From contig JBCCHD010000001.1 in the NCBI GenBank assembly GCA_039028935.1, positions 1 through 64,000 on the forward strand: a stretch of 64,000 nt of DNA, given 5' to 3'. The notes under the pieces were generated by a model. That model saw only the letters and a list, made by a program, of their open reading frames with translations. It had not been told where the DNA came from and searched no databases. Source of the DNA: Pseudomonadota bacterium (GTDB lineage: Bacteria; Pseudomonadota; Gammaproteobacteria; Steroidobacterales; SZUA-146). A program made the position numbers and the translations under genes. Numbering within the stretch: position 1 is the stretch's first letter; every line of letters begins with the position of its first letter. This document shows, in pieces, positions 14,246 through 28,974 of the stretch.

Positions 14246-15375
14246 GTTCGTCCGGTGGGGCAGTGCGGCGTCTGATCTTCGTCGCGCTTCTATCGATATG
14301 GGGTCAAGCGGCGCACGCGGAGCCGTTCGTAACCTTTGACGCACAGGATGCTTCGCTCAGTATTCATCACCTTACTGCGCAACAGCGTCGCGATATCGTT
14401 GCGCATCCGGATGCCGTCACATTGCGGCTTGCGGGTGCAACGGGCGGTATGCTGCTCACGGTGATAGAGGAGACACCCACGATCCGAATAACGCCTCGCT
14501 TTCGACTTCTGTCCGGTCGTGAGTATGAGCTGTCCATCAAGCGAGACCATGACATTTGGTTTACGGCGCCGGTTAAAACGCCAAGACAACGTGCACCGAC
14601 GCCGACCGTGCACTCGCTACACCCAACGACCATTCGCGTGCCGGCCAATGCTCTTAAGTGGTACTTACGGTTTTCCGAGCCCATGTCTCGCGGCCAACTC
14701 AGGCAGCGAGTCGCGTTGTTCGATGAAGCCGGTCAACAGGTTGAGCACCCGTTTCTTAATCTTAAGCGTGAACTGTGGGACGCCGATCAAACGCAGCTCA
14801 CCTTGCTGTTTGATCCGGGGCGCGTAAAACGGGAGGTGGGTCCGAACCGGCACGCGGGAGCGCCACTTGTCGCGGGCAAGCGCTATACATTGCTCATCTC
14901 TGGTGAGCTACAAAGCGCTGAAGGCCAACCGCTCGGCCAGGATCATCGATTGACGCTTGAAGTGGGTCCCGCCGAGCGCACGACATTCAATCCCGATCGT
15001 TGGGTGATCGGGCCACTGCAGTCCGGCTCTCAACGGCCGCTGACGATTGCGTTCGACCGAGTAATGGACGCCAGCGCTGCGCGTCATGCCATTCGTATCC
15101 AGGATAATTGTGGCCAAGCTGTGATCGGCACCACTCATTCAGATGGAACGCGCTGGCACTTTACCCCCGTCGATTCTTGGCGGGCCGGTCATTATTCCAT
15201 CTTGATCGACCCAGCGTTAGAGGACATTGCCGGTAACACCATGGCGGCACCGTTCGATCGGCGCTTCGATCCTGCGCGTCGGCGCGCGCCTGCGCCGGCC
15301 TATGCACGACCGTTTTCGATTGGCGAAAATGCGTCAAACGGCGCTCGCCGTTCGATATCGTCAGAGGGTCATTGA
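14242..15375 (+). CDS. Exported protein with Ig-like (SbsA-type) domains, unknown function
   Basis: A 377-residue exported protein (signal peptide ending near AAHAEP). Two stretches resemble bacterial Ig-like/SbsA Big_5 modules: residues about 115-225 (TIRVPANALKWYLRFSEPMSRGQLRQRVALFDEAGQQV) and about 255-335 (PLTIAFDRVMDASAARHAIRI ... GHYSILIDPALEDIAGN). Such modules usually mediate surface or periplasmic contacts and are not catalytic. It is translationally coupled to the preceding lipoprotein, so the two probably work as a pair. Its last 7 bases overlap the convergent cytochrome gene. Confidence 0.6.
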   Translation: MSSSGGAVRRLIFVALLSIWGQAAHAEPFVTFDAQDASLSIHHLTAQQRRDIVAHPDAVTLRLAGATGGMLLTVIEETPTIRITPRFRLLSGREYELSIKRDHDIWFTAPVKTPRQRAPTPTVHSLHPTTIRVPANALKWYLRFSEPMSRGQLRQRVALFDEAGQQVEHPFLNLKRELWDADQTQLTLLFDPGRVKREVGPNRHAGAPLVAGKRYTLLISGELQSAEGQPLGQDHRLTLEVGPAERTTFNPDRWVIGPLQSGSQRPLTIAFDRVMDASAARHAIRIQDNCGQAVIGTTHSDGTRWHFTPVDSWRAGHYSILIDPALEDIAGNTMAAPFDRRFDPARRRAPAPAYARPFSIGENASNGARRSISSEGH

Positions 15376-15704
15376 GTTGGCTTTGGCAATGGAGGCCTTA
15401 ATTCCGGATCCAGTAAGGGGCGCCGCGACCAGTCTTCCTCTTTGTACTGCGCTTCTAAGTAATCCAAGATTTGTTTTTCTTGTTCCGGCGGAATGGGCCA
15501 CAGGTTTTGGGTGGCCTGCATCCAGCGGATAGTCTTGAGCCAAAACGCGCGATCGCCGCGCTGGGTGGTGACCAAAAGCAGCGAATGGCAGCCGCTGCAG
15601 TGTGCGCGCACGAGCGCGTCTCCGTCGCCCGGTTTGAGGTCGCTTGCCTGACTGTTCGAGGCCAGCGTAAGAAAAAGCAAAAGTAGTAGGCTCGCCCTCT
15701 GCAT
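15369..15704 (-). CDS. Monohaem cytochrome c, probable electron acceptor of sulfite dehydrogenase
   Basis: A 111-residue periplasmic cytochrome c. After the signal peptide (ending near NSQAS), the haem motif CSGCH is at residues 36-40; a Met in IRWMQATQNLWPIPP may be the axial ligand. It begins 3 bases after the stop of the sulfite-oxidase-family gene. This is the arrangement of SorA/SorB-type sulfite dehydrogenases, in which a small cytochrome takes the electrons from sulfite oxidation. The Pro-rich C-terminal tail is a minor peculiarity. Confidence 0.8.
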   Translation of the reverse strand: MQRASLLLLLFLTLASNSQASDLKPGDGDALVRAHCSGCHSLLLVTTQRGDRAFWLKTIRWMQATQNLWPIPPEQEKQILDYLEAQYKEEDWSRRPLLDPELRPPLPKPTQ

Positions 15705-15707
15705 ACG

Positions 15708-16874
15708 CTAGACCGCTTGAACCGCGATGCGATGACACGCATTGTTTAAATAGCCCTTGGGATTCCAGCCCGGTAAGAGCATCGGTTGTGCGCGGCCCAT
15801 CTCGTCTGTCGCCCGCACAAAAATCTCATGGTATCCGGTTGAGGGCAGGCGCACATCGGCTTGCCAGGCCTGCCAGGCTAAGCGATTGTCGGGCGCCGCT
15901 AATTCGGCTTGTTGCCAGGTGGCGCCAAAATCGCAGCTCGTGTGCACCGCGTCCACTTTGAAATCCCCAGCCCACGCTTTACCGCGCACGCGGAAACGTT
16001 TGTTGTGTGGCGCGGTTGAGCCGGACCGTGGAAAAGTGATGAGTGACTTGACCGGCATCGATTCGATTATGCACATGTCCTGCTCGGCGACCTGTGTGCC
16101 GGGTGCAACGGGGTCACACGGCACGCGATACGAATAGCCTTGCATTTTCGGTCCGTCATGTACGCGATCACGCACTAATAGCGTGGTTAGCCATTTGCCC
16201 GAAACAGAGCCGGGCCAGCCGCCTAAGACCAAACGCAGTGGCGCGCCGTGCAATGGATCGATCGGTTTGCCGTTGAGCTCAAACGCGATTAACGATTCTG
16301 CTTCCAAGGCCTTGGCCACGGGCACGCCGCGCGAAATGACCTTCTTGTTCGGGTCGCCCGATAGATGGCGGTCGGCACCTTCGTAGGCGACGTACACCGC
16401 GTCATCGCTGACACCGCAATACTCGAGCACCTCTTTTAACCGCACGCCTGTCCATTTGGGACAACCGATTGCACCGGTTGACCATTGATTGCCCGACGCG
16501 CGCGGGCGGAACTCGGAGCGACCGTTACCACCACATTCAAGCTGCAAAGCGAGGGTGACCGTCGTGAACCTTTCTTTCAGCTCGCGAATGGAAAACGAAG
16601 TGGGGCGCAGACACGATTCGCCTTTGACCTGTAGCGACCAGTTGTCGGCATTCATCGACTTCGGCAGTAATCCATTGTTTCGTACAAACAGATGGCGTGT
16701 CGGTGTCACGATGTCATCGAGCAAATGCGCCGGACACTCGGCATTAAGTGGTCGATCGTTTAAAACGCGTAGAGCACTTTTGTCAACGCCGTTTTCCACT
16801 GCACGGACTAGCGTGGGCGGAGCGAGCACGAAACTGCCCGCGCTTAAAATAAATGACCGTCGATCGAATTTCAT
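15708..16874 (-). CDS. Sulfite oxidase-family molybdopterin enzyme (SorA/SoxC-like)
   Basis: A 388-residue periplasmic molybdoenzyme predicted to oxidise sulfite to sulfate. A Tat signal (MKFDRRSFILSAG) precedes the molybdopterin domain with the Mo-binding Cys in LQLECGGNGRS (Cys 114) and the typical GAIGCPKWTGVRL and HGAPLRLVLGGWPGSVSGKWL. A dimerisation domain occupies the C-terminal third (from about 270). The cytochrome gene immediately downstream supports a SorAB-type sulfite dehydrogenase. Sulfite could arise from organosulfur compounds; the DMSP lyase in this window does not itself release it. Confidence 0.85.
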   Translation of the reverse strand: MKFDRRSFILSAGSFVLAPPTLVRAVENGVDKSALRVLNDRPLNAECPAHLLDDIVTPTRHLFVRNNGLLPKSMNADNWSLQVKGESCLRPTSFSIRELKERFTTVTLALQLECGGNGRSEFRPRASGNQWSTGAIGCPKWTGVRLKEVLEYCGVSDDAVYVAYEGADRHLSGDPNKKVISRGVPVAKALEAESLIAFELNGKPIDPLHGAPLRLVLGGWPGSVSGKWLTTLLVRDRVHDGPKMQGYSYRVPCDPVAPGTQVAEQDMCIIESMPVKSLITFPRSGSTAPHNKRFRVRGKAWAGDFKVDAVHTSCDFGATWQQAELAAPDNRLAWQAWQADVRLPSTGYHEIFVRATDEMGRAQPMLLPGWNPKGYLNNACHRIAVQAV

Positions 16875-17249
16875 CGCCTCTCCTTACGGGTCTAGAGTGA
16901 GGGAGGGACCTCGACAGTCCCACTATCGGGTGTCATGCCCTGTCACTTAAAACGCTCAGTACAGCCGCTTCACGCAATACGGTCGTTTGCGCTACCGAGG
17001 TCGCGCCGAAGCAGCAATCGGTGCGCGGCATAGACGCCCTGGTCATGCTGGATCGTGATCCACGCGATCGCTTGGCACGGTAACCGTATTGCCCGAATGG
17101 TGATCATAACTTCCCGTTTGACGTTGCAACACATGAAGGGTTGTTTGCCCGACACTCTATTCGAAGCACCATTCTATACCATACAATCATAGACTGTGCT
17201 CAGGATGATTTTATATGCGATAACGCACTGTCTCCCAATCGACTCACTC
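16875..17249. other. Divergent intergenic region between sulfite dehydrogenase and epimerase-like gene
   Basis: These 375 bases hold the start signals of both flanking genes. The minus-strand gene has GGAGAGGCG just before its ATG. On the plus side an AT-rich stretch (about 17160-17215, including TATACCATACAATCATAG) is the likeliest promoter area, but I cannot define -35/-10 boxes with confidence. The plus frame is open from 17196, but the protein's conserved start is at 17250. I see no small gene or RNA. Confidence 0.35.
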
Positions 17250-18356
17250 ATGTTCATCAAAGAAATTCATATCTATCGAAAAGAACTGCCGATAAAAGAC
17301 GGTCCGTACATCATGTCGGATATCACACTTGAGCAGGTCGATTCGACCATTGTCGAGATCGTGACCAACACCGGTTTAGTCGGCTATGGTGAGACCTGTC
17401 CGCTGGGAGCGGTGTATCAACCGGCGCATGCGCTCGGCGCGAGAGCCGCGTTGAGGCAATTGTGTCCCGGTCTGATCGGTGAATCCCCGCTGGCCATTGA
17501 TACGGCGCATCGCAATATGAATGAGTTGCTCAATGGGCATCGCTATGCCAAAGCCGCATTGGATATTGCGCTGTGGGATATTTGCGGCAAGCACTATAAC
17601 GTGCCGCTGTGCACGTTGTTAGGTGGTGCGGTTGCGCCTTCGGTGCGCACTTACTATGCGCTGGGTATTGATTCGCCAGAAGACACGGCGCGACGGGCGA
17701 GTGACAAAGCACGGGAAGGATTTTCGCGATTGCAGGTGAAAGTCGGTGGCCGTACGATCGACGAAGACATTGCCACCCTTCATCAAGTCGCCGAGGCAGT
17801 GGGTCAGCGTGTTAAGTTAGTAGCGGATGCCAATCGCGCCTGGACCGCCGCGGATCTTCTGCAGGTTAGTACGGCATGCCGGTCAGTTCCGCTGGTGCTT
17901 GAGCAGCCGTGTGACTCGCTCCAGGAGATCGCTCGCGTTCGCGCCCAGCTTTGTCACCCTGTCTTTATCGATGAGCGCAGCGAATCCATTGCCGCTATGC
18001 TCACCTGCATTGAACGCGGTATCGCGGATGGATTCAGCCTGAAGGCGACGCGTCTTGGCGGTGTCAGCGCGATGCGCACCGCGCGCGATGTCTGTGCGGC
18101 GAGGTCTCTGCCTCACACCTGCGACGACGCGTGGGGTGGGGACATTATCGCTGCGGCGTGCGTGCATCTAGGCGCGACGGTGGATCCAAGATTGTTTGAG
18201 GGCACCTGGATTGCTGCGCCGTATATCGATGAACATTATGATGAAAAACAGGGTGTCCGGATAGAAGGAGGTCGTATTGGCGTGCCTTTGGGTCCGGGCT
18301 TAGGCGTTGTGCCGCCGGCTGGTTTTTTTGGGTCGGCATTGTGCTCGTTTGGCTGA
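17250..18356 (+). CDS. Mandelate racemase/muconate lactonizing-superfamily enzyme, hydroxyproline-betaine 2-epimerase-like
   Basis: A 368-residue enolase-superfamily enzyme. Visible catalytic parts are Lys164 in RLQVKVGG, the metal ligands Asp193 (VADANRAW), Glu218 (LVLEQPC) and Asp241 (FIDERSE), and Lys265 (GFSLKATRLGG). From memory, the hydroxyproline-betaine epimerase HpbD uses Lys163 and Lys265 as its acid/base pair and Trp320 for cation-pi contact with the quaternary nitrogen. This protein has Lys164, Lys265, Asp292/293 and a Trp at exactly 320 (FEGTW). That makes a proline-betaine or hydroxyproline-betaine epimerase/racemase the leading call, with cis-3-hydroxyproline dehydratase-type chemistry as an alternative. 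The start is the ATG of MFIKEIHIYRKELP. It stands alone, 27 kb from the BCCT/MttB region. Confidence 0.75.
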   Translation: MFIKEIHIYRKELPIKDGPYIMSDITLEQVDSTIVEIVTNTGLVGYGETCPLGAVYQPAHALGARAALRQLCPGLIGESPLAIDTAHRNMNELLNGHRYAKAALDIALWDICGKHYNVPLCTLLGGAVAPSVRTYYALGIDSPEDTARRASDKAREGFSRLQVKVGGRTIDEDIATLHQVAEAVGQRVKLVADANRAWTAADLLQVSTACRSVPLVLEQPCDSLQEIARVRAQLCHPVFIDERSESIAAMLTCIERGIADGFSLKATRLGGVSAMRTARDVCAARSLPHTCDDAWGGDIIAAACVHLGATVDPRLFEGTWIAAPYIDEHYDEKQGVRIEGGRIGVPLGPGLGVVPPAGFFGSALCSFG

Positions 18357-18462
18357 CCGAGACTGAACGTGAGATCTTTTCGAGGTGGTCAAAGCGATGT
18401 CGACGCAGTGAAGAGTTAATGGAGACGCGCACACACAGGGTGACGCGCGGTAAGTGAGGACT

Positions 18463-19713
18463 ATGATGATCAAATGGCAGATCGTGTTCGGTTTGGTGGT
18501 GGCCTTTTTATTGGGCTGTGCTGCAGTAGACGTTGAGCCGGGGGAGGATACGGCGACGCGAAGTGAGGCGGTTACGCACCCGGTGGTGATTCAGGCATCC
18601 GTGCCTGCTGATGCGCCGGTGGTGTATGTGGCAGGCAACTTACCTGAACTGGGTCCATGGCACCCAGCGGCACTCAAAATGGCTGGTGACGGCACGAGTC
18701 GATCCGTGACCATCCAGGTTCCGCATGGGCACAACCTTCAGTACAAAATTACGGCGGGCTCGTGGGAACAAGAAGGGCTGGGGCCCTCGGCGACCGTGTT
18801 ACCCAGTTTCACCGCGACGATTACCGAACCCGTCACGCTAACTGCCGCGATAGCCGGGTTTCGCACCGATCCGGTCGCGCTGATCTCCGATTGGCGTGGA
18901 AGCGGGGTGAAGGGTGATCTGACGTACTGGACCGATGTCACCTCAACGTTTTTGGAGGAGACACGTCATGTTGTCGTGTGGACGCCGCCCGATTATGCGG
19001 CACACCCGGATCGCGACTATGCCGTGATTTACATGCACGATGGTCAAAATCTGTTTGATCCACGCCTGTCGTACACGAACATCGACTGGGGGGTCGATGA
19101 GGCCATGATGAAAGGCGCTGAAGAGGGTTTATTTGAACCGGCTATTGTCGTCGGCATTTGGAACACGGCCGCACGACTCAAAGAGTATTCGCCCGACCAC
19201 CTCGCTCCGCAGTATGCGCGGTTCTTGATTGAGGAGCTCATGCCGCGTGTTGAACAAGACTTTCGCGTGAAACGCGGTCCCGAGCACACCTTTACTATGG
19301 GGTCGTCAATGGGCGCGATCGTCTCGTTCTATTTGGTACGCGACTATCCGGAGGTGTTCAGCGGCTGCGGTTGCCTGTCGACGCATATCACATGGTCTGA
19401 GCAACAGATCGCTTGGTACAACGGCGAAGATCCGACCGATGCGAATCCAGTACCCTTTTTACTCCGCTCGCTGACGCCCGATGCTGCTATGCCGTCGGGT
19501 CAGCGCCTGTATTTTGATTACGGCACAGAAGGGCTCGATGCGCACTATGAGCAGCCGACGCAGGTGTTGGCCCAATGGCTTGAAACGCAAGGATACCGGC
19601 GTGGCGACACGCTCAATGTCGAGAAATACGATGGGGCGGATCATAATGAGGCCGCCTGGCGCGCGCGCGTTGGCAAACAGCTCACCTGGCTATTGGCACC
19701 TCGTCGCCCCTAG
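18463..19713 (+). CDS. Lipoprotein esterase with N-terminal starch-binding-like (CBM20) domain
   Basis: A roughly 417-residue lipoprotein (LLGCAAVDV; lipobox Cys near 20). Residues about 45-145 form a CBM20/CBM48-like beta-sandwich (VVYVAGNLPELGPWHPAALKM, QYKITAGSWEQEG). The rest is an enterochelin-esterase/PF00756 alpha/beta hydrolase with YMHDGQNLFDP, the nucleophile in MGSSMGAIVS, and the catalytic His in DGADHNEAAW. ATGs at 18463 and 18466 are both possible after GAGGA. Substrates in this family range from ferric-siderophore esters to acylated sugars. The carbohydrate-binding module favours a polysaccharide or glycoside ester at the cell envelope. The second TonB receptor lies downstream across a long leader. 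Confidence 0.8.
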   Translation: MMIKWQIVFGLVVAFLLGCAAVDVEPGEDTATRSEAVTHPVVIQASVPADAPVVYVAGNLPELGPWHPAALKMAGDGTSRSVTIQVPHGHNLQYKITAGSWEQEGLGPSATVLPSFTATITEPVTLTAAIAGFRTDPVALISDWRGSGVKGDLTYWTDVTSTFLEETRHVVVWTPPDYAAHPDRDYAVIYMHDGQNLFDPRLSYTNIDWGVDEAMMKGAEEGLFEPAIVVGIWNTAARLKEYSPDHLAPQYARFLIEELMPRVEQDFRVKRGPEHTFTMGSSMGAIVSFYLVRDYPEVFSGCGCLSTHITWSEQQIAWYNGEDPTDANPVPFLLRSLTPDAAMPSGQRLYFDYGTEGLDAHYEQPTQVLAQWLETQGYRRGDTLNVEKYDGADHNEAAWRARVGKQLTWLLAPRRP

Positions 19714-23074: not shown

Positions 23075-24919
23075 TTAGTCACATGCCGGGCGCAGTTGAG
23101 CGAGGTCGTCGACAACAGATTGCAGACCGGGCATGACCCGATTGATTTCCGTTTCATAACGTTTCCATTTATTCGGATCGGGCGGTGAAACCGTGTATTG
23201 AGAGAGCGGGCTTTTTTCGCTGGCCAGCGCTTGCATACGAGGGCCAAACGGTACGTCTGCAAACGAACATAGGCGTTCAACGGTGGTGGCCTTGTCCGAG
23301 ACGAGTTGCGAATAGCTCACGGAGCACCACGCATCGGCAGGGAGGTCGGCAAGATCGCTCAAAATTTGGCGATTGGCACTGGCCCATTGGAACGCCGCAA
23401 TATCGGCCATGGGGTGATCGGCAAGGGCGCGCCAGCCCTCTGGAAGCAGCAGCGACCAAGGCAGTCCGTGCCAGCCGGGCAGGTTGGGGTAGGTAACAAA
23501 GCGACCCGATTGCCACGCCTCCATAATACTGGCCACGCTTTGCTGTGGATTTCGATGTAGAAAGATAAAACGCGCATCGGGGAACACAGCACGCAAAAAC
23601 GGAATACGCAGCGCGTTTTTCGGCGTCTTTTCCAAAAAGCGACATTGCGCTAAACGTGTTTCGGCCGGAATGTCGGCGAACAGCGTGCCACGCGCGTTTT
23701 TTAGGTTGCCCAAAAAGCGTCGAATGAGCGCATCGACTACGCCTGGCGTGGCGTTCTCGCGACCCAGTGCGTTTGAATCAAAGTGGCGCGCGGCGGGGTG
23801 AAGGGTCCGAATGGACTCAATTTCAACGTGACTTTCGTCACCCGTTGTCCAAAACTCAATATTCTGCCGCATGAGTTCAAACAGCAGCGTACTGCCGGAG
23901 CGCGGTGCCGCGACAATAAACACCGGGCGGTCGAACAAAGAGGACGACATCAGAGCGCCGGCTTCATTAGATCCGCGCGCCATTAAGAGTCTGTCGTCAT
24001 TAAGCGTGCTGAGCCAGCTGTGCAAAACAGTACGGACACTTGAGCCGTTGGCGCTAAACGTCGCGCCGTCCAGCATCGATTCAACAGTCGCTTCGAAGTC
24101 TCGAATAAGCGTTTGGTAGGTGGATATTCCTTCCTGCAAGTCGCCGTAACGCGACCAGGCCGAGCGCCAATCGTGGCGAAACGCACTGGATGCCGCTATG
24201 AATTTAGGTGATTGCGTGATTCCGCATCGCGTGGGTTCTTGAGTAAAATCGTCAAGCAGTGCATCCACGTCGTTTGGTGTGCGCACGGCTACGCTGTTGA
24301 AGCGTTCGTATTCGAGAGTCGGTGAGGCGCTGGCGTCATAGGCAACGTGCTTCAGGGCGCCGTTCTGACCGTGAGCGAGCGACTCATCTACCTGTTGCCA
24401 AAACGCAGCGCTGCCGGTCGTGTCGACGACTAAATGCACTCGTCGGCTGGCGCCTCGGTTGTATACGGCGTGCTCTTTCCAGTTATCAAAGATCCACGCT
24501 TCACCTTCAGCCATGTTAACAGTGCTATGGCCAATCGATTCAAAACTGACCTCGCTGTCGGTCACGATCGGGATATGAATACGTACTCGATGACGCCAGC
24601 TGTAATCGATATCGCAGTGCGGGCGCACCTGACAACCGGGTTCGAGTCGCATCAGACGTGAGCGCCCGATGACTGAGCCAAAGGCTGCCAGCACTTGACG
24701 AATATAAGGGCAGCGTTCCAGGTGGGGGGTGGCTTCCATAGGTCCGGTGTAACGATTGTTGCGCCCACCTTCTGACGACACCAAAATCAGCGCTGTATTG
24801 CCTTCGAAGCCTTGTGGATGCGTGTCCCAATCGCTGTCGGAAAACTGCGCTATCTCATGTTGAAGTTGCGACGCATCAAATCGCAGTGGGAGGCGAATGA
24901 ACTCATGGGGAAGCTTCAT
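23075..24919 (-). CDS. Fusion: Asp/Asn beta-hydroxylase domain plus sulfotransferase domain
   Basis: A 614-residue two-domain protein. Residues about 1-190 are an aspartyl/asparaginyl beta-hydroxylase (2-oxoglutarate/Fe(II)) domain. The iron site is VRPHCDIDY (His101, Asp103) and DNWKEHAVYN (His150), and Arg/His residues in RVRIHIPIV and RRVHLVVD suit 2-oxoglutarate. Residues about 330-600 form a sulfotransferase domain, with the PAPS 5'-phosphosulfate loop PVFIVAAPRSGSTLLFELM (332-350) and the 3'-phosphate element FIFLHRNPQQSVASI (451-465). The start at 24919 matches the start of the paralog at 28974; the frame is open to 24961. No signal peptide is visible, so it should act in the cytoplasm. 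The domain pairing implies sequential hydroxylation and O-sulfation of one substrate, but neither the substrate nor the order is known. Confidence 0.85.
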   Translation of the reverse strand: MKLPHEFIRLPLRFDASQLQHEIAQFSDSDWDTHPQGFEGNTALILVSSEGGRNNRYTGPMEATPHLERCPYIRQVLAAFGSVIGRSRLMRLEPGCQVRPHCDIDYSWRHRVRIHIPIVTDSEVSFESIGHSTVNMAEGEAWIFDNWKEHAVYNRGASRRVHLVVDTTGSAAFWQQVDESLAHGQNGALKHVAYDASASPTLEYERFNSVAVRTPNDVDALLDDFTQEPTRCGITQSPKFIAASSAFRHDWRSAWSRYGDLQEGISTYQTLIRDFEATVESMLDGATFSANGSSVRTVLHSWLSTLNDDRLLMARGSNEAGALMSSSLFDRPVFIVAAPRSGSTLLFELMRQNIEFWTTGDESHVEIESIRTLHPAARHFDSNALGRENATPGVVDALIRRFLGNLKNARGTLFADIPAETRLAQCRFLEKTPKNALRIPFLRAVFPDARFIFLHRNPQQSVASIMEAWQSGRFVTYPNLPGWHGLPWSLLLPEGWRALADHPMADIAAFQWASANRQILSDLADLPADAWCSVSYSQLVSDKATTVERLCSFADVPFGPRMQALASEKSPLSQYTVSPPDPNKWKRYETEINRVMPGLQSVVDDLAQLRPACD

Positions 24920-25173: not shown

Positions 25174-27207
25174 ATGAGTACCAAGCCCGAATCGCCAGTC
25201 GCTCCTCCCGGTGGCGGCAAACGCAGCGCATCCGCCGCTGACTACGCGCAGCAGCTGGCTATGCAGGGTAAATTTGCGGAGAGCCTGCACGTGCTGGACG
25301 ACGCTGGGCAGTCGGCGCACACCATTGAGGGGCTGTATGTCAGAGCGGTGTGCTATCGCAAGCTGGGACAAACTCAAAGCGCGTTGGCGGCACTTAAAGC
25401 GCTTAACGATCTGCCTGGCGACTATGCGCGCGCCTATCAAGAGTTAGGGCACACGCATATGGATGTCGGTGCCACTGCCAAGGCGCTGGTGGGCTATGAG
25501 CATGCCGTGAGGCTGAATCCGGCACTGGTGGCATCGTGGCGAGCATTGACCAAACTGTACCTCGATGGGGGGCAGCCAGCGGCGTTAGCCCATGCTCAAG
25601 ATCAGTTGCGCCAACTCGAGCAACTTCCACCTGAGCTGCAGTCGGTAAAGAGCCTGCTTCATGAGGGTAATTTGGAGCAGGCTGATCGACTCTGCCGACA
25701 CTTTCTAACTCGCAATAAAACGCATGTCGAGGGAATGCGCTTGCTTGCCGAAATTGCGATCAGACACCGCATTATCGACGATGCCGAATTCCTGCTAGAA
25801 AGCGCCGTCGCGTTCGAGCCAAAGCACGTGGGCGCACGCGTGGATTACGTCAATATATTGCTTAAACGACAACGGTTCGAAAACGCGAGGGACATAGCAG
25901 AGGAGCTGGTCAACGAATTTCCAGACAACCATCAGTTCCTGGCATTGCTGGGCGCCTCCGAGCTTGGTGTCGGTAACACCAATCGGGCCATCGATGTGCT
26001 TTCAGGGTTGGTCGATGCGAAGTTCAATTTGCGCAGCTCGTTGCTGGCACTCGGGCATGCCCGCAAAACGGCTGGTGATTTCGACCAAGCGGTGAGCGAT
26101 TACCAATCGCTTTATCACCATATTCCCGATTTTGGTGATGCGTTTTGGAGCCTGGCGAATACCAAAACTTATCGCTTTGCCGACGACGAAATTCAACACA
26201 TGCAAACGTATGAGGCGAACGAATCGACATCGATTGTCGATCGCGTTCATTTTTGTTTCGCACTCGGCAAAGCGTTTGAGGACCGTGCTGATTATGACCG
26301 TGCGTTCGACTATTATGAACGCGGAAACCAGCTGCAAAAACAGTCGCTCGATTACGCTCTACCTGCTTTTGATAAGCGTGTACAGCGTCAAATCGAAGTG
26401 TGCGATCATACGCTCTTTGAGCGACGCAAGACGGTTGGCTGTCCAGATCCTGATCCCATTTTTATTCTGGGTTTGCCGCGTGCTGGGTCTACGCTACTAG
26501 AACAGATTTTGGCGTCGCATTCTCGGGTTGACGGTACGTTAGAGTTGCCGAATATTTTGAGTCTTTCTCGTCGGCTGCTCGGTCGGGCACCCGCCAAGCC
26601 AGGCGAAGAACCACAGTATCCGCGCATTTTGGGTGAGCTAGACGACAGTTATTTCGAACGCTTTGGTCGTCAATATCTCGACAATACGCAAGTCTTTCGG
26701 CAGGGTGCCGAATTTTTTATCGACAAGATGCCAAACAACTTTTTGCATATTGGCTTGATCAAACTGATCTTGCCGAACGCAAAGATTATCGATGCTCGTC
26801 GTCATCCTATGTCCTGCTGTTTCAGTGGATTTAAGCAGCTGTTTGCGGAGGGTCAGGAGTTCACTTACGGTCTCAGCGACATCGGTGCGTACTACCGAGA
26901 ATATGTGCGCATGATGGATCATTGGGATAACGTGCTGCCCGACTTTGTGCTGCGAGTTCAGCATGAAGATGTGATCGATGACCTCGAGGGGCAGGTGCGG
27001 CGGTTGCTCGATTTTTGTGATTTGCCATTCGAGCAGTCGTGTGTGGACTTCCATAAAACGGAGCGGAATGTGCGTACCCCAAGTTCTGAGCAGGTGCGTC
27101 AGCCGATTTTTCGAACGTCCATGGAGCAGTGGCGACATTTCGAAGATCAGCTCCAGCCGCTCATCGATGCGCTGGGTCCGGAAATCATGGAACGATACCC
27201 GATCTAG
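25174..27207 (+). CDS. TPR-repeat sulfotransferase
   Basis: A 677-residue protein. Residues about 20-420 are tetratricopeptide repeats (for example FAESLHVLDDAGQSAHTIEG, AKALVGYEHAVRLNPAL, FDQAVSDYQSLYHHIPDFGDA, YDRAFDYYERGNQ). The C-terminal 250 residues are a sulfotransferase: PAPS loop PIFILGLPRAGSTLLEQIL (about 428-446) and 3'-phosphate region AKIIDARRHPMSCCFSGFK. This architecture is commonly annotated as a tyrosylprotein-sulfotransferase-like family, with the TPR array thought to hold a protein or peptide substrate. The start at 25174 follows AGGAAG; the frame opens at 25168. It lies back to back with the hydroxylase-sulfotransferase fusion and just ahead of another sulfotransferase gene. 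Confidence 0.9.
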   Translation: MSTKPESPVAPPGGGKRSASAADYAQQLAMQGKFAESLHVLDDAGQSAHTIEGLYVRAVCYRKLGQTQSALAALKALNDLPGDYARAYQELGHTHMDVGATAKALVGYEHAVRLNPALVASWRALTKLYLDGGQPAALAHAQDQLRQLEQLPPELQSVKSLLHEGNLEQADRLCRHFLTRNKTHVEGMRLLAEIAIRHRIIDDAEFLLESAVAFEPKHVGARVDYVNILLKRQRFENARDIAEELVNEFPDNHQFLALLGASELGVGNTNRAIDVLSGLVDAKFNLRSSLLALGHARKTAGDFDQAVSDYQSLYHHIPDFGDAFWSLANTKTYRFADDEIQHMQTYEANESTSIVDRVHFCFALGKAFEDRADYDRAFDYYERGNQLQKQSLDYALPAFDKRVQRQIEVCDHTLFERRKTVGCPDPDPIFILGLPRAGSTLLEQILASHSRVDGTLELPNILSLSRRLLGRAPAKPGEEPQYPRILGELDDSYFERFGRQYLDNTQVFRQGAEFFIDKMPNNFLHIGLIKLILPNAKIIDARRHPMSCCFSGFKQLFAEGQEFTYGLSDIGAYYREYVRMMDHWDNVLPDFVLRVQHEDVIDDLEGQVRRLLDFCDLPFEQSCVDFHKTERNVRTPSSEQVRQPIFRTSMEQWRHFEDQLQPLIDALGPEIMERYPI

Positions 27208-27221
27208 GCGCACACGCTGCC

Positions 27222-27851
27222 GTGATTGTTTCGCACACACATCGATTTATCTTCTTTGCGGTGCCGCGCACGGCGACCCATTCGGTGCGTGCGGTACTTG
27301 CACCGCATTTAGGCGATGACGATTGGCAGCAGGAACGTTTGGACAGCGCGCACCGTTTGCCCATTCCTGAGTTGGCCGGGGCCGGTCACGGGCATCTCGG
27401 TGTGCGCGCCATCAAACCACACTTGCCCGAGGAAGTCTTTCAGCACTATTACAAATTTGCTTTGGTGCGGCATCCGTATGATCGGTTTGTGTCGGTGTGT
27501 TCTTTTCTTAATCGTGACAATCCTGACTTTGCGCATGACCCGGAGCAGTGGATGTGGGACGCGTTAGAGCGCGAGCGATTTCGAGCGCGTCTGCTCGTGA
27601 GGCCCCAGATCGCGATGCTGGTTGATGAATCCGGTGAATTGGCGCTCGACTTTATTGGTCGTTACGAGGCGCTGGCCGAGTCCCTGCGCAATGTGGCTGC
27701 CAGACTTGATCTGCAATTGGACGACTTACCGCACAGGAACCGGTCACCCGATGCCATTCGTTTGGCCGCACTGACGCCGCGGCTACGCCGTGCGCTCGAT
27801 GCGTTCTACGCGGCTGATTTTGAGGCGTTCGACTATGATCGGGCGAACTAA
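27222..27851 (+). CDS. Sulfotransferase family 2-type protein
   Basis: A roughly 209-residue protein of the PF03567-like sulfotransferase group, the type that includes Golgi carbohydrate sulfotransferases. The modified PAPS loop FIFFAVPRTATHSVRAVL is at residues about 8-25 and the 3'-phosphate motif FALVRHPYDRFVSVCSFLNRD about 78-98. The frame is open from 27129 inside the preceding gene, but family-like sequence begins at the GTG at 27222, 15 bases after the TPR-sulfotransferase stop. The ribosome-binding site is weak, so translation may be coupled. It is short for the family but has both substrate-binding elements. Confidence 0.75.
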   Translation: MIVSHTHRFIFFAVPRTATHSVRAVLAPHLGDDDWQQERLDSAHRLPIPELAGAGHGHLGVRAIKPHLPEEVFQHYYKFALVRHPYDRFVSVCSFLNRDNPDFAHDPEQWMWDALERERFRARLLVRPQIAMLVDESGELALDFIGRYEALAESLRNVAARLDLQLDDLPHRNRSPDAIRLAALTPRLRRALDAFYAADFEAFDYDRAN

Positions 27852-28017: not shown

Positions 28018-28974
28018 TCAGGTGAAGTAGGGCAACAGGTCGGGCCGCAGAGCGGCGCGGACGATGCGCTGCATGACGATTGGTGTGGCGCCGAGGTCAT
28101 TGCTTTTTGTGGTGAGTGCGCGGGGTGGCGGTAGTGCCGCGACCGCGCGCTCGAGTAGCGCCTGATACACCGGGAATCCAGTTCGAGCGTAGCCATGCAG
28201 TGCCCAGGTGCTACGCCAGTCTCGATACAGCGTCCGCAGTGTGGTTTGTAGCGCGGCCAGTGCTTGTGGGTCGTTTTGTGTATTGAGCTTAAGATCTTCA
28301 ATGAGATCGTCGCCGAGCGCGCGCATTTCACCTGGCGCGAGTACCGGGGTTGAATTGAATCGCTCGGTTTGAATCGTGTGTCGGCCGGATTCGTCAAAGA
28401 CCAACGGCGACTCGGGCGGACTGAGTTGTTCGTACAGAACCCGTTCAACGTTGGCCCAGAATGCGGCGGAACCGGCCGTGTCCAGCACCAAGTGAATGCG
28501 ACGCGCTGAGCCACCATTCACCACGCGATGCGGGCGCCAGGAGTCGAAGATCCAGCATGTGCCAGCCGCCATGTGGATGTGATCGTCGCCGCAATAAAAT
28601 TGTACGTCGGCGCTGGTGACAATAGGAATGTGAATTCGAACGCGTGAAAACCAATGATAGTTGAAATCGACATGACGACTGACCTCCGCGCCGGCATCGA
28701 GCGCCATCAGACGAGAGCGACCATAGACCTCGCCGATGTGGTGCATGCACTGTTGTAGATACGGGCTGTCTTGCAGGTGCGGCGTGGTCTTCATCGGCCC
28801 GTCAAACGCATCATTATTGCCGCCATCCCGCGACACAAGCGGCAACGCTTCGTTGCCGTTCATGCGAGATGGGTGAGGCAGCCATTTACGTGATGAAAGC
28901 TGCTCAACCTCGTACTGCAGGCGCGTCGTATCGAATCGATACGGTAGCTGAATGAAAGGTCGTTTGAGTTTCAT
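28018..28974 (-). CDS. Asp/Asn beta-hydroxylase-domain protein
   Basis: A 318-residue 2-oxoglutarate/Fe(II) oxygenase that aligns from its first residue with the N-terminal half of the fusion protein at 23075. Both begin MKL..F(I)(R/Q)LP(L/Y)RFD, both have GRSRLM about residue 86, and both have the iron site: here SRHVDFNY (His101, Asp103) and DSWRPHRVVN (His149). RIHLVLDTAGSAAFW follows in both. The human AspH enzyme lacks a carboxylate at the position of Asp103, whereas these proteins have one. The sulfotransferase domain is missing; the last 120 residues are a helical region of unknown role that also has a counterpart in the linker of the fusion protein (RDWRSTWALHGY compared with HDWRSAWSRYGD). 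Confidence 0.82.
   Translation of the reverse strand: MKLKRPFIQLPYRFDTTRLQYEVEQLSSRKWLPHPSRMNGNEALPLVSRDGGNNDAFDGPMKTTPHLQDSPYLQQCMHHIGEVYGRSRLMALDAGAEVSRHVDFNYHWFSRVRIHIPIVTSADVQFYCGDDHIHMAAGTCWIFDSWRPHRVVNGGSARRIHLVLDTAGSAAFWANVERVLYEQLSPPESPLVFDESGRHTIQTERFNSTPVLAPGEMRALGDDLIEDLKLNTQNDPQALAALQTTLRTLYRDWRSTWALHGYARTGFPVYQALLERAVAALPPPRALTTKSNDLGATPIVMQRIVRAALRPDLLPYFT

Follow-up and report, generated by a model that had tools for sequence, protein, structure and literature searches.

A fused oxygenase–sulfotransferase gene recurring near TonB-dependent receptors in Pseudomonadota

The locus and its genes

A fused gene lies beside a TonB-dependent receptor. We analysed a 64,000-nucleotide stretch (the window) from a gammaproteobacterial genome of the lineage SZUA-146 (assembly GCA_039028935.1, contig JBCCHD010000001.1, positions 1 to 64,000). 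The region of interest carries, in order, genes for a TonB-dependent receptor, an oxygenase–sulfotransferase (AspH-ST) fusion, a TPR-sulfotransferase, a Sulfotransfer_2-family sulfotransferase and a second oxygenase (Table 1). The reading frame of the fusion is unbroken, as the initial annotation had proposed, and its start codon aligns with the starts of its relatives. A Pfam search, suggested with that annotation, placed both families above their cut-offs in the one chain: Asp_Arg_Hydrox (PF05118) at residues 62-167 (E 1.3e-17, 64.6 bits against a cut-off of 22.6) and Sulfotransfer_3 (PF13469) at residues 332-558 (E 4.2e-26). Pfam detected no TPR domain in the protein, and no NCBIfam family matched it above cut-off. 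A chance fusion or an assembly read-through can be ruled out, as full-length fusions recur in other genomes and on an Asticcacaulis plasmid. The fused hydroxylase–sulfotransferase gene is confirmed as real.

Table 1. Features of the fusion gene and its neighbours in the window.
Feature	Position	Strand	Remarks
TonB-dependent receptor, 910 aa	20269..23001	+	Pfam Plug and beta-barrel
AspH-ST fusion gene, 614 aa and stop	23075..24919	-	ATG at 24919, stop at 23075; no internal stop
Oxygenase half, residues 1-300	24020..24919	-	PF05118; predicted double-stranded beta-helix and C-terminal helices
H101-x-D103, predicted metal-binding motif	24611..24619	-	invariant in 25 relatives
H150, predicted third metal ligand	24470..24472	-	invariant
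R160, predicted 2-oxoglutarate C5-carboxylate arginine	24440..24442	-	invariant; counterpart of cis-P3H R168
Linker, residues 301-328	23936..24019	-	model confidence low; length varies among relatives
Sulfotransferase half, residues 329-606	23102..23935	-	PF13469; fold matches to TPST1 and CurM ST
PRSGSTLL, 5'-phosphosulfate loop, residues 339-346	23882..23905	-	P339, R340 and S343 invariant
E362, predicted catalytic base	23834..23836	-	invariant; aligned to Glu of the TPST GEET motif
R456...S464, predicted 3'-phosphate-binding residues	23528..23554	-	invariant
TPR-sulfotransferase, 677 aa	25174..27207	+	Pfam TPRs and Sulfotransfer_3, E 5.9e-49
Sulfotransfer_2-family sulfotransferase, exact start unsure	27165..27851	+	PF03567, E 3.5e-13; profile match 27165-27845
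Second, stand-alone oxygenase, same clade	28018..28974	-	shares 44% identity with the fusion's N half

Several other genes lie on the far side of the receptor. A putative esterase with a lipoprotein-like start and a weak match to a starch-binding domain (18454-19713, plus strand) directly precedes it. At 17196-18356 (plus strand) there is an enolase-superfamily gene, which among NCBIfam families comes closest to cis-3-hydroxy-L-proline dehydratase, at 282 bits against a cut-off of 500. A sulfite-oxidase-like molybdopterin enzyme (Oxidored_molyb and Mo-co_dimer; 15369-16874, minus strand), followed by a small c-type-cytochrome-like protein, is located about 6 kb from the fusion; its presence may be due to chance.

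Both halves look catalytic. To assess conservation we aligned the oxygenase half with 25 relatives, all of which match the PF05118 profile, and the sulfotransferase half with 24. The residues named by the initial annotation (H101, D103, H150 and a PRSGSTLL loop) are all present and invariant or almost invariant among the relatives, with the loop exactly at the residues listed in Table 1. The oxygenase half contains the H-x-D/H triad and 2-oxoglutarate (2OG)-binding arginine of a 2OG/Fe(II) oxygenase, and R86, R88 and R113 are also invariant. The sulfotransferase half has the 5'-phosphosulfate loop, catalytic base and 3'-phosphate residues of a PAPS sulfotransferase, with P339, R340, S343, E362, H364, R456 and S464 invariant across the alignment. 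Judged from these residues both halves look catalytic, and the earlier claim that each keeps its key residues holds for both sequence and predicted fold. An APS kinase is encoded in the genome, so PAPS can be made.

Predicted structure and likely substrates

The oxygenase half resembles hydroxylases of free amino acids. In an AlphaFold2 model built from nine sequences (mean pLDDT 72.7, pTM 0.50) both folds are present, but neither the linker (around residues 287-326) nor the arrangement of the halves relative to each other is reliable; given the pTM, the model does not fix the mutual position of the two active sites. Fold comparisons, for which Foldseek was also used, count differences in Z of less than 1 as ties. 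By fold the oxygenase half best matches a Cpz10/Mur16-type beta-hydroxylase of nucleoside antibiotics (7v4m, Z 16.4, 22% identity) and L-proline cis-4-hydroxylase (Z 15.8), followed by human AspH (Z 14.3). When a profile of the oxygenase clade was compared with solved structures, L-proline cis-4-hydroxylase ranked first (E 7.3e-13), then proline 3-hydroxylase and Cpz10-type enzymes; human AspH was absent among the matches at E <= 0.01.

Each of these enzymes is an imperfect template for the fusion. The L-proline cis-4- and cis-3-hydroxylases (4p7w, 1e5r) share with it a like fold, the H-x-D...H triad, the 2OG arginine, an R-S-R motif and a similar length of the oxygenase unit, but are only about 20% identical, are not fused to a sulfotransferase and act on free proline. 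The Cpz10/Mur16-type enzyme, unlike the fusion, is a separate protein of an antibiotic cluster. Human AspH belongs to the same Pfam family and has the same fold, but it carries a TPR domain and coordinates its metal through two histidines (His679 and His725) and two waters (PMC6817910), whereas the fusion has no TPR domain and keeps the Asp ligand. The marks of a human-type AspH, metal binding by two histidines only and a TPR domain in the same chain, are therefore both missing, D103 being invariant.

The arginines of the oxygenase half are informative as to what may be bound. In human AspH the carboxylate of the substrate Asp is salt-bridged by K666 and R688 (PMC6817910), whose counterparts in the fusion are R88 and R113. 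Docking and modelling of cis-P3H assigned the substrate carboxylate to R95, R97 and R122 and 2OG to R168 (PMC9968057); by alignment, R86 and R88 correspond to R95 and R97, forming an R-x-R ahead of the H-x-D motif as in proline cis-hydroxylases, and R86, R88, R113 and R160 correspond to the carboxylate/2OG set as a whole. Because R86, R88 and R113 match carboxylate-holding residues, their conservation reasonably suggests that the carbon to be hydroxylated lies close to a carboxylate. Such a site would be compatible with Asp as well as with a related group or a free amino acid. The Asp or Asn target initially assigned to the oxygenase is not borne out, since the nearest solved relatives are free-amino-acid proline hydroxylases and Cpz10-type enzymes, with human AspH lower and having a two-His metal site; "Asp/Asn beta-hydroxylase" is the name of a Pfam family and not an established activity.

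These similarities raise the prospect of small-molecule chemistry, in which the fusion would act on a small peptide or on a free amino acid such as proline rather than modify a protein. The profile ranking described above, the lack of a TPR domain in the fusion and the dehydratase-like gene at 17196-18356, albeit below its family cut-off, are in line with this alternative. However, resemblance to the proline hydroxylases amounts to only about 20%, we saw no recurrence of the dehydratase-like gene alongside the fusion, and the neighbouring enzymes have TPR domains, which in human AspH help to bind protein substrates (PMC6817910). We consider a free amino acid substrate somewhat unlikely.

The sulfotransferase half resembles both TPST and polyketide-type enzymes. 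By fold this half matches TPST1 (Z 16.7), CurM ST (Z 16.5) and STF9 (Z 16.4), while its best sequence matches among solved structures are CurM ST (E 7.5e-20) and olefin synthase ST (E 6.7e-15). The PAPS loop and catalytic Glu align with those of TPST1/2, which, unlike the fusion, is a Golgi enzyme that acts on tyrosine and has no fused oxygenase. The CurM and olefin synthase domains sulfate a beta-hydroxyl, but they are parts of polyketide synthases with a thioesterase after them, a context not found around the fusion. Their closeness in sequence is what favours a role for sulfation as activation, in which the new hydroxyl, once sulfated, would be lost by elimination or displacement to leave a double bond or ring but no stable sulfate. 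Such a role appears very unlikely, as TPST is an equally good fold match and the neighbours examined include no recurrent gene for a thioesterase, a polyketide synthase or an enzyme of elimination.

Linkage and spread of the fusion

Hydroxylase and sulfotransferase are consistently linked. Among 51 loci of this oxygenase clade, 33 encode the fusion, and in 47 the oxygenase is either fused or has a sulfotransferase gene within 500 bp. In the remaining four, the sequence ends at a contig end (L138, L143) or a TPR-sulfotransferase lies 2.5-3.9 kb away (two loci). This link is not general to PF05118, as these genomes also encode about nine more distant members of the family, none with a sulfotransferase in view. 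A separate fusion family has the opposite order, ST-AspH-TPR, with one protein each in L050 and L051; Pfam matches to its first part are weak (E 8e-4 and 0.017), and the sulfotransferase call rests on similarity to the other sulfotransferases of the cluster. Together, the conserved fusion, the adjacent split genes and the separate reverse-order fusion provide strong support for the functional link between hydroxylation and sulfation that the initial annotation had drawn.

The neighbours of the reverse-order genes (L050 5321-7300, L051 9156-11111) include TonB receptors as well as two or three tryptophan halogenases. Halogenases, AspH and sulfotransferase are also found together at L046 and L048.

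The two halves could instead modify different positions or molecules of one pathway, with the fusion merely keeping the dose of two cluster enzymes equal. The clusters contain other enzymes (TPR-ST, TPR-AspH, Sulfotransfer_2, 2OG-FeII_Oxy_3), so the decorations could be independent, and the oxygenase clade pairs with other sulfotransferase families as well. It also occurs as a stand-alone protein beside a different kind of sulfotransferase, and a shared hydroxyl is therefore not forced. On the other hand, that fusions exist in either order, and with sulfotransferases of two kinds, favours a direct hand-over, and separate targets seem to us a rather doubtful explanation.

The fusion is widespread. 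It recurs across several classes of Pseudomonadota at about 40-51% identity. Matches were found in 28 of 196 related genomes (E 1e-10), 48 of 396 sampled genomes of the same order (E 1e-25), 14 of 369 genomes in the class and 6 of 398 genomes of a phylum sample (E 1e-30). The nearest full-length relatives, 51% and 49% identical, come from another family of the same class. Two plasmid-borne relatives, from Asticcacaulis sp. DW145 (42% identical) and Diaphorobacter sp. HDW4B (41%), are annotated simply as "sulfotransferase". On the former plasmid (L149 9001-10791) the whole fusion frame is open, while the CDS in the record covers the sulfotransferase half only. On the latter (L150 6380-11987), where no receptor is present, the fusion is flanked by an IPTL-CTERM surface protein and a DUF4915/TIGR03032 protein.

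In trees of the oxygenase and of the sulfotransferase, fused, paired and single forms group far more than in shuffles. At least 5 changes of fusion state are needed on the oxygenase tree and about 2 on the sulfotransferase tree, counts in which gains and losses are inseparable because the contig ends noted above inflate them and several deep forks are weak.

TonB-dependent receptors and further enzymes accompany the fusion. Most loci with enough sequence contain a TonB-dependent receptor, TPR-sulfotransferases and further hydroxylases. A receptor is present in 30 of the 51 loci, many of them short stretches, compared with about 11% expected within 10 kb from the 24 receptors in the 4.1 Mb of this genome; since the loci are related, the p-value of this enrichment serves as a guide only. 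Fused copies with no receptor in view occur at L060-L062, L103, L104, L134 and L135. One recurrent cluster (L033, L037, L039-L041, L105-L118) comprises a TonB receptor, a TPR-sulfotransferase, a 2OG-FeII_Oxy_3 protein, a TPR-AspH and the AspH-ST fusion, with a weak Sulfotransfer_1-like protein and another AspH on its other side. The window departs from this arrangement (Table 1); L139 and L145 have the gene set of the window minus the fusion. The linked receptors fall into two unlike subfamilies, in neither of which did we find an obvious site that would serve as a telling modification motif.

We also looked for candidate substrates within the clusters. Clusters of the L041 type are compact and leave no gap between members for a precursor-peptide gene. 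Large open reading frames after the gene pairs in L034 and L035 look like antisense shadows, being of low complexity and without a Pfam match. A secreted protein of 140 aa with two conserved cysteines is encoded in or beside the clusters at L105, L107 (8664-9077), L109 (10955-11374) and L111, and also at L038, L040, L108 and L116. It is a possible substrate and a lead only, as it has no Pfam match and is absent from the window and many other clusters.

Proposed function

A proposed two-step modification of one target. We infer that hydroxylation followed by sulfation is the best reading of this gene. A bifunctional enzyme that hydroxylates and then sulfates the same target, with a product tied to the adjacent receptor, has in our estimate a probability of roughly 45%. 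The enzyme would be cytosolic. Its N-terminal 2OG/Fe(II) oxygenase would hydroxylate a carbon near the carboxylate of an amino-acid-type substrate, whether a free amino acid or a residue within a peptide or protein. Its C-terminal sulfotransferase would then use PAPS to sulfate that target, most likely at the new hydroxyl. Sequential action, sulfation of the same hydroxyl and a carboxylate-bearing substrate are all inferred; hydroxyl and sulfate may reside on one single residue. The fusion may cooperate with the neighbouring TPR-sulfotransferases and further hydroxylases, and the product would be linked to the adjacent TonB-dependent receptor, whether as the receptor itself or as something handled by it.

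A more specific version holds that cytosolic fusions, together with TPR-sulfotransferases and TPR-hydroxylases, place a hydroxyl-O-sulfate on the adjacent receptor or an exported protein before export. The linkage to two unlike receptor subfamilies and the TPR domains of the partner enzymes prompt this idea, which we hold to be distinctly unlikely at present.

Significance. Each of the two enzyme families is well known. The fusion and its receptor-linked gene set are apparently undescribed; a search of the open-access literature, with subscription journals outside its scope, found no description of either. What recurs here is a group of hydroxylase and sulfotransferase genes associated with TonB-dependent receptors and, at some loci, with tryptophan halogenases. 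If the two steps are coupled, a single chain would place an O-sulfate on a carbon that is not activated, which would be useful chemistry and possibly a new kind of modification for bacterial surface proteins or metabolites. Should the receptor itself or an exported protein prove to be the target, this would be a bacterial surface-protein modification not described so far. The proposed activity would also assign a role to many genes that at present carry no more than the label "sulfotransferase" or "aspartyl/asparaginyl beta-hydroxylase domain-containing protein".
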